A stretch of DNA of 64,000 nucleotides from Sneathiella sp. P13V-1 (GTDB lineage Bacteria > Pseudomonadota > Alphaproteobacteria > Sneathiellales > Sneathiellaceae). The DNA is taken from assembly GCF_015143595.1 (NCBI RefSeq), contig NZ_WYEU01000001.1, positions 744,001-808,000 on the forward strand, given 5' to 3'. Shown piece by piece: positions 7,491-46,184 of the stretch. The position numbers and the translations under genes are program-made. A model generated the notes under the pieces. It had not been told where the DNA came from. It did not search any database and worked only from the letters and a program-made list of their open reading frames with translations. Position 1 is the first letter of the stretch. Every line of letters begins with the position of its first letter.

Positions 7491-7537
7491 TGGCGCACCC
7501 GACAGGATTTGAACCTGTGACCTCTGCCTTCGGAGGG
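7491..7537 (-). repeat. attL: displaced tRNA-Arg 3' half at the left island end
   Basis: On the minus strand this reproduces the anticodon arm from its 5' stem, the T-arm and the CCA end of tRNA-Arg, then stops abruptly. Bases 7516-7537 are identical to 46133-46154 in the intact tRNA gene, a 22-bp shared core. The T-stem differs from the intact tRNA by paired (compensated) changes, so this is probably the host tRNA end displaced when the island brought in a replacement 3' half. Confidence 0.85.
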
Positions 7538-7877
7538 TCACCACGCATTGAGTTTCAAATTGGTGTCTTCTGTTGTCACTCGTTGAAAATCACTAACGCA
7601 TTGAATTAATTAAAAAAATATAAGTGCTAATTTAGGGCCTAATAAAGCCGATTTATTCAAGTAAGTATGGTTTGAATTCAATTTGGTCACAAAACACTTT
7701 TTATTTTCCTGGTATATTTACCAAGTTTTCTGATGGTGTTTCGCCTCAAAATAATAGTTTGCCTAATCGAAGCTTCAAAAAACTATTCGGAACTACTTTT
7801 TTCTTTAGTAAATTCATTGCTATCAAAAGTAGTTTTTTAAAGCTAGTTTAGATCGTTCTAGGACTCAGGGGAACAAC
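7538..7877. other. Non-coding left end of the island
   Basis: An AT-rich 340-bp stretch just inside attL. It contains TTTGGTCACAAAA at about 7683, a motif repeated at the opposite island end near 46032, and so may hold integrase arm sites. No gene is convincing. Confidence 0.5.
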
Positions 7878-8288
7878 ATGGGTGATGGCGTTTCTATCAG
7901 ATGCAGCAACTGTCAAAACCAAGAAGATTTTGGCATTGGTAGTGGTATGACAACTTATATGCCATTCATTAAACACGATAGTCGTTTTGGTGAAAATTCA
8001 GAAGTACGGAAAGCCATCGAGATATGGCAAAATAACGAGAATGTTCGAGATGTTTGCTCTTATCAGCTTTGTGTATGCCCAGAATGCAAGCGTATAAAAC
8101 ACCGATTATATATAGAGCTTTTTCTCGATAAGAAATTAGTATTCCAATCAAATTACATCTGCCGTAAACACAATAATGCCATGTCTTGGATTAAAGATCC
8201 TACAGTCAGTTTAGGCGATAATTGTGAGTGCCCAAAATGCGGTAGCCATGATCTATTATGTTATGATAATGGCTTAATGTGGGACTGA
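7878..8288 (+). CDS. Small multi-zinc-ribbon protein of unknown function
   Basis: A 136-residue protein with three Cys-x2-Cys pairs: CSNC near residue 9, CPEC near 71 and CPKC near 115. This suggests one or two zinc ribbons. An AGGGG ribosome-binding site precedes the ATG. It is the first gene inside the left island end. I do not recognise a family; a nucleic-acid-binding accessory role is only a guess from the zinc ribbons. Confidence 0.6.
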   Translation: MGDGVSIRCSNCQNQEDFGIGSGMTTYMPFIKHDSRFGENSEVRKAIEIWQNNENVRDVCSYQLCVCPECKRIKHRLYIELFLDKKLVFQSNYICRKHNNAMSWIKDPTVSLGDNCECPKCGSHDLLCYDNGLMWD

Positions 8289-8353
8289 GTTTGATCAGTA
8301 ATCATTAACATTCCCCATTTGGCTGACAAATACTTTTTACGTATAGCATTCAC

Positions 8354-8635
8354 ATGAGCCTTCGAAAGCAAATGAGTTTTGGTGAGTTGCTGTCTGGTTC
8401 AACGCAGAAGTTAGAGTGGCCTCAATCAAAATTTGAAGAAGCAAGATCATGTGCCCCTGCAGGTTCTTCATGTAAAAAAGATCTTGCTGTTCGGGAAGCT
8501 ATTGCGCTTCCCAATCCAATAGCTCGATTAGGATTTGTATCAGATCGTCCGGCTAACTGTAGTGTTGCCGGCGACTACCTGAGTTACAGTCAGGTGGTTC
8601 CGGAAAATAGGCTCTTCATTTCCCGGACAAATTAA
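8354..8635 (+). CDS. Doubtful 93-residue open frame
   Basis: A short frame with no recognisable domain and no clear ribosome-binding site. It follows the zinc-ribbon gene by 65 bp. It could be a cargo gene, a remnant or chance; listed only so the stretch is not left blank. Confidence 0.2.
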   Translation: MSLRKQMSFGELLSGSTQKLEWPQSKFEEARSCAPAGSSCKKDLAVREAIALPNPIARLGFVSDRPANCSVAGDYLSYSQVVPENRLFISRTN

Positions 8636-43729: not shown

Positions 43730-43732
43730 GCT

Positions 43733-45820
43733 ATGGATGAATTAGATAAGAAGGTTACGGGTGTATTTGATGGCAAGGTCGTGAGAAAAGACCTGCTCCA
43801 TCGGATTAAAAAAGGCACCAACGTGCCCACCTTCGTGCTGGAGTTTTTGTTGGCGCGGTACTGTGCCAGCGACGACGAAGCTGAGATCCAGGGCGGATTG
43901 GAGGCAGTACTTGAAACCCTGAACGATAACTATGTGCGCCCCAACGAGGCCAACAAAGCACAGTCCAAAGTTGCGACCAAGGGTAAGTACAAATTCATCG
44001 ATAAAGTACACGTCAACTACGTGGAGAAAGACCGCCGCCATTGGGCGGCCCTGGAAAACTTTGATTCCAGGCGTGTCGCGATCTCTGAAAAATTCTACCG
44101 TGACAACGATCGACTGCTACAGGGTGGGTTGTGGTGCGAGGTCTCCATCGCCTACAACGAGATTGAGGACGACGATTACGCGTTCTACATCGAAGACCTG
44201 CGCCCGATTCAGCTTAGCCGGTTTAACTTCGAGCAATACTGCGAAGGCAGGGAACAATGCTCACGTGATGAATGGTTCGATATCGTACTGCGATCGGTTG
44301 GCTTGGAGCCCAGTAAGTTAACGCACCGGGTCAAAATGCACTTCGTTGCCCGGTTACTCCCACTGGTTGAGCCGAATTTTAACTTCATCGAGCTTGGTCC
44401 TCGCGGTACCGGCAAATCTTATTTCTTCAGCGAGTTTTCACCGTACTCCACGCTGATTAGTGGAGGCCAGGCTACGAAAGCTACCCTGTTTTATAACAAT
44501 CAACGCAAGAAAATTGGCCTTGTGGGATTTTGGGATACCGTCGCATTTGATGAAGTAGGCGGCATTAAAGTCAAAGACCCCGACACCATTCAGATCATGA
44601 AGGACTTTATGGCCAATGGCCGGTTCTCGCGTGGGGTGGAGGTGATCGCCGACGCCTCTATGGCCTTTGTCGGGAACCTCGATCTTTCCGTCTCACAGAT
44701 TGTGAATTCCGAGGTCTACGATCTGTTCCAGCCGCTACCCAAGGAATTTGATCTTGCAGTAATGGATCGGTTCGCCTGCTATCTGCCCGGTTGGGAGATG
44801 CCGAAAAACAGCAGTGAGTTCTTGACCAGTAACTATGGCTTCATCACTGATTACCTGGCCGAAGCTTTCCATCACCAGCTCAAGCAGACCAACCGTTTTG
44901 AAGAGGTCAACAAACGCATTCGTCTCGGTGCATCAGTCGAAGGCCGTGACGAGAAGGGTATCAAGAAAACCGTTGCGGCTTTTCTGAAGATTCTACATCC
45001 CGCTGGCGCGCCTTCCGATGAGGAGTTCCAGGAGTATGTGGAATATGCGGTCGAATGCCGACGCCGCGTGAAGGAGCAGATGAACAAGCGCAAGTCAGAT
45101 GATGAGTTTGCCAAGATCAATCTGTCCTATATCAGTGCGGATGGCAAAGAGGTGGTCGTTTACTGCCCCGAATCGAAGTCGGCTCCAGCTACACAAGAAC
45201 CTATTCGACGTGATATCCATTCCGACGAGGCGCCAGACCAGGCATCTAAAGAACCACCAAAATCCGAGGCAGTGGCAACACCACCCCAGGTCGCCGCGGA
45301 CGTCGCTGAGATTCCTGAACCGCCACCGGTAGATGAACCCGTCATTGAGGAATTGAAAGAACAGCACTACACCATTCATTACGGTGCCACGGGATACAAC
45401 TATGAATCGATTGTCGGGCCCTATTTGGAAGGTGCCAAGTCGATTGAAATAGAAGACCCCTATATTCGAGTGACGCATCAAATCCACAATTTTGTTCGTT
45501 TCTGCGAAGCGGTGATCAAGACCCCAACGGTTCGCAAGATTCGCTTGGTTACCAGCTATGACGACGATACGGACGTTAAAAAAATGTCGGAGAACCTGAG
45601 CGAGCTGAAACAAAGCCTACTTGAACTCGATATCGAGTTGGAGCTCAAGGTCAACGAGCACATGCACGACCGGGAAATTCGTATCGATAACGGTTGGACA
45701 GTGAAGATCGGGCGCGGTTTAGATTTTTTCCAGAAGCCGGATAGCTGGTTTGGGGTCGGTGCCAATGACTTGAATCTTAGGAAGTGCCTGGAAACAAAGG
45801 TAGATATCTTTAAACGTTAG
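43733..45820 (+). CDS. brxL: BrxL AAA+ protein with MIT_C-like C-terminal domain
   Basis: A 695-residue BrxL. Walker A is GPRGTGKS at residues 222-229; a Walker-B-like TVAFDEVGG is near 265. A Pro/Ala/Glu-rich linker (about 480-540) leads to a C-terminal domain (about 545-690) with YLEGAKSIEIEDPYIR, HQIHNFVRFCE, HDREIRIDNGW and IGRGLDFFQ, which closely match the phospholipase-D-like domain at the end of eukaryotic MIT-domain (MITD1) proteins. Family knowledge: BrxL is a DNA-binding AAA+ ring that is needed for phage restriction in type 1 BREX. It ends the operon; about 290 bp of non-coding DNA then leads to the tRNA. Confidence 0.9.
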   Translation: MDELDKKVTGVFDGKVVRKDLLHRIKKGTNVPTFVLEFLLARYCASDDEAEIQGGLEAVLETLNDNYVRPNEANKAQSKVATKGKYKFIDKVHVNYVEKDRRHWAALENFDSRRVAISEKFYRDNDRLLQGGLWCEVSIAYNEIEDDDYAFYIEDLRPIQLSRFNFEQYCEGREQCSRDEWFDIVLRSVGLEPSKLTHRVKMHFVARLLPLVEPNFNFIELGPRGTGKSYFFSEFSPYSTLISGGQATKATLFYNNQRKKIGLVGFWDTVAFDEVGGIKVKDPDTIQIMKDFMANGRFSRGVEVIADASMAFVGNLDLSVSQIVNSEVYDLFQPLPKEFDLAVMDRFACYLPGWEMPKNSSEFLTSNYGFITDYLAEAFHHQLKQTNRFEEVNKRIRLGASVEGRDEKGIKKTVAAFLKILHPAGAPSDEEFQEYVEYAVECRRRVKEQMNKRKSDDEFAKINLSYISADGKEVVVYCPESKSAPATQEPIRRDIHSDEAPDQASKEPPKSEAVATPPQVAADVAEIPEPPPVDEPVIEELKEQHYTIHYGATGYNYESIVGPYLEGAKSIEIEDPYIRVTHQIHNFVRFCEAVIKTPTVRKIRLVTSYDDDTDVKKMSENLSELKQSLLELDIELELKVNEHMHDREIRIDNGWTVKIGRGLDFFQKPDSWFGVGANDLNLRKCLETKVDIFKR

Positions 45821-46107
45821 CAATATTTGAACTGTGATGACTGTCTTACCACTTGCTTCTTAATCTGGATAATTCAGAGGAAATATTTCTAATCAATCTG
45901 AGGATGAAAAATTTATTTAGTAGTTTAATTTAATTTCCATGGGGTTTGACCTGAGACACTTGATGATAATGGTAACTTCTGAATCTCAATTTCTATTATT
46001 GTTAATGATGAGATTTCTATCCTGGTCACGTTTTGGTCACAAAATGGTCACCGCGAAAATTGACAACTTTTCGCAACTGCGTAAGTGATTGATATTATTA
46101 AGGAAAA
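45821..46107. other. Non-coding right end of the island
   Basis: An AT-rich 287-bp stretch between brxL and the tRNA-Arg 3' end. No gene is seen. Its main content is the cluster of GGTCAC repeats described separately. Confidence 0.5.
46023..46051. repeat. Three helically phased TGGTCAC repeats near attR
   Basis: TGGTCAC occurs at 46023, 46034 and 46045, exactly 11 bp apart, about 80 bp inside the attR core. A copy in TTTGGTCACAAAA sits at about 7683 near attL. Short direct repeats at one helical turn are typical of integrase arm-type binding sites. Confidence 0.6.
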
Positions 46108-46184
46108 TGGCGCACCCGACACGATTCGAACGTGTGACCTCTGCCTTCGGAGGGCAGCGCTCTATCCAGCTGAGCTACGGGTGC
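46108..46184 (-). tRNA. tRNA-Arg (anticodon CCG)
   Basis: A complete 77-nt cloverleaf with encoded CCA. The acceptor GCACCCG pairs with CGGGTGC, the anticodon stem CTGCC/GGCAG frames loop CTCCGAA, giving anticodon CCG, and the T-stem ACACG pairs with CGTGT around TTCGAAT. The island meets it on the 3' side. The 3' half differs from both remnants at 5438 and 7491 in the T-stem by paired changes, so its 3' half probably came in with the island. Confidence 0.95.
46133..46154. repeat. attR core inside the tRNA-Arg anticodon arm
   Basis: These 22 bases are identical to 7516-7537. They span the anticodon stem-loop and the variable-region side of the tRNA, a common crossover place for tyrosine integrases. 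Confidence 0.8.

Follow-up and report, generated by a model that had tools for sequence, protein, structure and literature searches.

A 64,000-nucleotide stretch of the Sneathiella sp. P13V-1 genome (contig NZ_WYEU01000001.1, positions 744,001 to 808,000; hereafter, the window) contains a single tRNA gene detected by ARAGORN and Rfam, tRNA-Arg(CCG), located at 46108-46184 on the minus strand (Rfam score 67.4 bits), which is also the only tRNA-Arg(CCG) copy found genome-wide. Two partial copies of this gene lie downstream of it on the same strand, a displaced 3' half (7491-7537) and a degraded copy that extends from the D-arm to the CCA end (5438-5502), with the CCA ends at 7491 and 5438, respectively. 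This is the layout of a tRNA-targeting integrative island, with the fragments downstream of the intact tRNA and in the same orientation. The main island, 38.6 kb long (7538-46107), spans the region from the intact tRNA to the 7491 remnant and encodes a tyrosine integrase (19920-21104, minus strand) containing Arm-DNA-bind_2, Phage_integrase and SAM-like domains, along with a bacteriophage exclusion (BREX) gene set, SbcCD-like proteins and a large recombinase-like protein. The integrase gene is positioned mid-island, at neither end.

The T-stem of the intact tRNA is ACACG/CGTGT, whereas both remnants have ACAGG/CCTGT, and the stem is fully paired in all three copies, as initially noticed by a reading of the sequence alone (hereafter, the sequence-only reading). 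The T-loop differs as well, TTCGAAT in the intact copy and TTCAAAT in both remnants. The 22-bp core around the anticodon arm, also reported in that reading, is an exact block shared by the intact tRNA and the 7491 remnant (46133-46154 = 7516-7537, minus strand) and includes the entire anticodon loop. Only the 7491 remnant retains this core; in the 5438 copy, the anticodon arm is degraded but D-arm sequence is kept. Over the last 14 bp at the 3' end, the intact tRNA and both remnants do not differ. With up to three mismatches allowed, the core and T-arm patterns yielded two and three matches in the window, respectively, compared to shuffle means of 0.01 and 0.00 (n = 100), so that a chance origin of the remnant matches is excluded. 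Compensatory mutation in place was considered and rejected because both T-stem alleles occur, fully paired, in other genomes.

To polarize the two alleles, we examined 24 Sneathiella genomes, in which 21 intact tRNA-Arg(CCG) copies were readable. The T-stem is ACACG in 18 of these 21, AGAGG in two (G017 and G010), and ATGAG in one (G009), the copies of G010 and G009 being located at contig ends; ACAGG was not found in any of the other Sneathiella copies read. In a smaller named set, which included a relative from the order Sneathiellales (L094), ACACG was present in 12 of the 13 rows. A tree of the flanking amidohydrolase gene (22 DNA rows) joined the window with G017 (Sneathiella sp. HCUG1435-5), its closest relative (91% in the amidohydrolase), with full support. 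When mapped on this tree, the T-stem states of the intact copies require three changes, at three separate tips, and none on the branch of the window, whereas an ACAGG state in the window would cost a fourth change.

An uninterrupted version of the site is available in S. chinensis (G002), which encodes one tRNA-Arg(CCG) with the ACACG T-stem and no displaced partner, identical over its full length to the intact tRNA of the window. About 350 bp past this tRNA lies a gene whose homologue in the P13V-1 genome, of the NnrS family, is found 13.5 kb to the left of the window, and from the NnrS gene onward, the two genomes share gene order for about 10 kb. The variable DNA in the P13V-1 genome extends over about 59.6 kb, from the NnrS region to position 46108, and encompasses psd. 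The psd gene, which is complete in only three of the 24 genomes of the genus (the window's own and two of the 23 others, with a short, broken match in one more), was accordingly dismissed as a core neighbor of the tRNA. The sequence-only reading, which took ACAGG for the original form, expected to find it next to psd in an uninterrupted relative and named island-free relatives carrying ACACG as evidence to the contrary; S. chinensis is such a relative, with ACACG next to NnrS.

Beyond the genus, we searched a sample of 385 alphaproteobacterial genomes (the window's genome, four other Sneathiella and 380 non-Sneathiella). ACAGG in combination with an identical core and acceptor strand was detected in 24 of these: besides the window's genome, 23 of the 380 non-Sneathiella genomes have it, but none of the four other Sneathiella; it was also present in 24 viral-contig stretches. 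A looser pattern matched in 83 of the 385 genomes and revealed that this core occurs with many different T-stem alleles that are fully paired. Prophage-like contigs of Alphaproteobacteria at tRNA-Arg(CCG) (L168-L195) share the core and the acceptor strand with the window, and several of them contain a TTTCAATGACTTAG-like flank past the CCA. Their ACAGG matches have the T-loop TTCGAAT, in contrast to TTCAAAT in the window remnants, and TTCAAAT was absent from all other ACAGG matches in the class sample and the prophage-like contigs. In our judgement, ACACG is very probably ancestral in Sneathiella and ACAGG foreign; the tree and the 385-genome sample together place the foreign allele in the remnants rather than in the working gene.

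The exchange of a T-arm can be traced more directly in the sister genome, G017 (L078), where AGAGG is found in the intact tRNA, which has an element-type flank, and ACACG in the displaced copy. To judge from these sequences, the T-arm of G017 arrived with the element. The crossover interval in this genome is 18 nt long, from the first base of the anticodon loop to the first base of the T-stem, and the intact and displaced T-stems diverge from the second stem base; in the displaced copies of G005, G018 and G019, the match likewise starts at the first base of the anticodon loop. Mixed pairs were also found in other families, in G349 (intact ACACG, displaced ACAGG) and in G074 (intact AGAGG, displaced ACAGG), and the genus of G349 harbors three T-stem alleles. 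Among the 11 Sneathiella genomes with both an intact and a displaced copy, nine have ACACG in both, save for one-sided decay in G012 and G018. The island at G017 thus resembles that in the window in that it occupies the same tRNA, with different T-arm alleles in the intact and displaced copies, but differs in that the working tRNA has the foreign allele and the ancestral form is the displaced one. The window shows the ancestral form in the intact tRNA, and the proposal that this tRNA is a chimera made by island integration is therefore only partly upheld: the swap of the 3' half is a textbook mechanism, is real in G017, and agrees with the element-like flank of the window tRNA (see below), but the intact copy in the window is ancestral. 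As a separate observation, the tRNA-Arg(CCG) of G408, a genome from the genus of G349 (L202, 1501-1541), has a mismatched T-stem, AGAGG/ACTGT, and a 3' flank nearly the same as that of the ACAGG remnant in G407 (L201), possibly, a T-arm recombination junction or an assembly chimera.

The DNA past the CCA end provides additional information, as a motif similar to TTTCAATGACTTAG, located four bases past the CCA, marks the element side. Allowing up to three mismatches, this motif is present next to 9 of the 11 intact copies that are paired with a displaced one, compared to 6 of the 21 displaced copies, and next to none of the copies in G002, G020 and L094. Among the remaining single intact copies, G007, G015 and G022 have the motif, G013 and G023 lack it, and scoring was not possible for G021, G010 and G009. 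An initial scoring of the motif covered 19 chosen flanks, and a second one covered all copies; the weaker full count, with 6 of the 21 displaced copies positive, is the one used here. In the window, the 5438 copy is followed by TTCCAATGACTTAG (5420-5433, minus strand), with one mismatch to the motif, a match not reached in any of 2000 mononucleotide shuffles, which indicates that the ACAGG copy at 5438 is attached to the end of an element. A weaker match (46081-46094, minus strand; 3 mismatches of 14, offset 13; reached in 12 of 2000 shuffles) follows the intact tRNA.

The explanation that we favor, with a probability of only about one half, is serial integration: an earlier element would have brought ACAGG, and a later one, the 38.6-kb ACACG-bearing island, would have displaced it to 7491, the order of the two events being inferred. 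Under this scenario, tRNA-Arg(CCG) is an attachment site repeatedly used by tyrosine-integrase elements that recombine at the anticodon arm. The attachment site of such an element (attP) would carry the 3' half of the tRNA, that is, the 3' anticodon strand, the T-arm, the 3' acceptor strand and CCA, and integration would weld this half to the 5' half of the host gene, so that the 3' half formerly in place ends up at the far side of the inserted DNA. The T-arm supplied by the earlier element, ACAGG, would have been in service within the tRNA for a time, until the later BREX island supplied an ACACG 3' half and sent ACAGG to 7491, so that the most likely sequence of alleles would be ACACG, then ACAGG, then ACACG again. 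The T-stem would stay paired because both of its strands are on the element's side of the crossover and move as a unit, rather than through compensatory mutation. Accordingly, the claim that the original 3' half was displaced to 7491 would hold in a narrow sense only, for the 3' half that the tRNA contained immediately prior to the latest integration, and is not supported for the native form. Both ends of the 38.6-kb island probably belong to one element, given that a pair of TTTGGTCACAAAA sequences, at 46032-46044 (plus strand) near the tRNA end and at 7682-7694 (plus strand) next to the 7491 remnant, resembles the arm sites of one integrase; these are the only two exact matches in the window, both just inside the island ends, and two matches were reached in 1 of 100 shuffles.

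Several observations weigh against serial integration. Under this scenario, a native ACACG remnant should lie where the variable DNA ends on the left, unless it was lost, and none was found with up to 16 mismatches in 45 positions across 124 kb (the window and 60 kb leftward). The 2-kb segment between the two remnants lacks an integrase. The flank of the 7491 copy does not contain the element-type motif (6 mismatches) and resembles both that of the outermost remnant in G005 (reached in 3 of 1000 shuffles, in one of 15 comparisons) and that of the intact copy in G004 (0 of 1000 shuffles), so this flank could be native. Finally, the TTCAAAT loop common to both remnants points to copying within the locus more than to two independent imports; its occurrence in both fits a single local allele that was copied or displaced twice.

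These observations have to be weighed together with three other explanations. The island with ACACG might have entered an ACACG tRNA first, with ACAGG elements later hitting the remnant at its far end, in which case the working tRNA would never have been ACAGG. The complete identity of the intact tRNA with that of uninterrupted S. chinensis is compatible with such distal accretion, as are the nine of 11 paired Sneathiella genomes with ACACG in both copies (decay in G012 and G018 aside) and the retention of the full core, a potential target, in far-end remnants. We nevertheless consider it unlikely, given that the 5438 copy is more degraded than the 7491 copy and hence probably older, and that the small segment between the remnants encodes no integrase. 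Still less probable is a native ACAGG, for which the island would have substituted ACACG. A displaced copy does record the content of the tRNA before a crossover in the anticodon loop, and the 7491 flank, devoid of the element motif, is partly similar to the outermost flank in G005; however, ACACG is found in most copies in the genus, in the displaced copy of the sister genome G017 and in L094, the ACAGG copy at 5438 is followed by an element-type flank, and the uninterrupted relative shows ACACG beside NnrS, not ACAGG beside psd.

The third alternative concerns the position of the crossover. The interval around the anticodon loop in which the crossover may lie is 22 bp long in the window. In an alternative with exchange at the 3' end, an attP with a longer, ACAGG-type tRNA copy would have recombined within the last 14 bp, which are identical in all three copies, leaving the host T-arm untouched. 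Such sublocations are common, with 1836 of the 3919 islands in Islander assigned to the T-stem/junction class (PMC4383910). However, across the genus, the match of the displaced copies reaches back as far as the anticodon loop, and the T-arm travels with the element side in G017 and G349, and we consider this the least probable of the explanations.

According to the description of Islander (PMC4383910), an island that integrates into a tRNA gene brings along a tRNA fragment with which the gene is made whole again, and the fragment formerly there is displaced; those islands, like that in the window, consist of an intact tRNA and a same-strand 3' fragment around a tyrosine-integrase island. The window differs from the islands described there in that the T-arm allele common to its two remnants is foreign to the genus and that the 2-kb segment between them is devoid of an integrase. 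A tandem array, as defined in the same description, has a separate fragment and integrase for every member, whereas 5503-7490 holds only HipA/HipB-like genes. Together with the stem that flanks it, the 7-bp anticodon loop is similar to the classical overlap and core outlined in PMC8371274. Our literature search for earlier cases of tRNA chimeras or of 3'-half or T-stem exchange at islands returned nothing on the subject by title, although, with its limited coverage, this carries little weight.

The cargo of the main island includes a BREX-like set (30272-45820, plus strand) consisting of BrxA, BrxB, BrxC, a PglX-like protein, a GmrSD_N protein, PglZ and BrxL, with strong PADLOC matches for BrxA, BrxB, BrxC, PglZ and BrxL; the GmrSD_N protein is encoded between the methylase and PglZ. 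SbcCD-like genes are located at 24399-28621. Three adjacent genes at 13133-19831 (plus strand) encode a helicase-associated HA protein, a 183-aa protein and an 1839-aa protein containing a Phage_integrase domain, and G005 has the same gene order, at about 25-32% identity, in a 33-kb island located at this tRNA. The trio is reminiscent of the Gamma-Mobile-Trio islands, of which it would be a candidate member.

The segment between the remnants (5503-7490) is filled by a HipA/HipB-like pair (5690-7302, minus strand). HipA was rejected as a conserved native neighbor, with any match in just four of the 23 other Sneathiella genomes and the best at 39% identity. Upstream of the HipB-like gene, three imperfect 24-nt repeats spaced by 49 bp (7313-7434) might comprise the operator of this gene. 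To the left of the 5438 remnant, adjacent genes encode a HEPN protein and a GmrSD_N/NsnA-like protein (3373-5134, minus strand). On the other side, next to the intact tRNA, a secreted-looking protein (46379-48001, plus strand) combines a ubiquitin domain (PF00240, 6.5e-30) with an autotransporter barrel (PF03797, 1e-27) and has homologues in three of the 23 other Sneathiella genomes (86% identity in G017, 61% in G001 and G010).

Overall, the locus is a genuine, if for the most part ordinary, example of island stacking at a tRNA gene; the mechanism proposed by the sequence-only reading is sound, and the direction of the swap is corrected. The comparison yields a rule for reading such sites: where the T-stems of an intact and a displaced tRNA differ and both are paired, this denotes transfer of the whole T-arm, not compensatory evolution, and the T-arm allele hints at the earlier whereabouts of the element. 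The congeners G017, G010 and G009 now use foreign or variant T-arms. More tentatively, the single tRNA-Arg(CCG) of this lineage may have passed from ACACG to a foreign ACAGG and back, with mobile elements shuttling T-arm alleles between genera. With a crossover upstream of both strands of the T-stem, the T-arm would be exchanged whole and could vary more freely than the acceptor and anticodon stems, which are split between host and element. If this back-and-forth order is correct, a single-copy tRNA would have been partly replaced at least twice by mobile DNA, and tRNA phylogenies should allow for such replacement.

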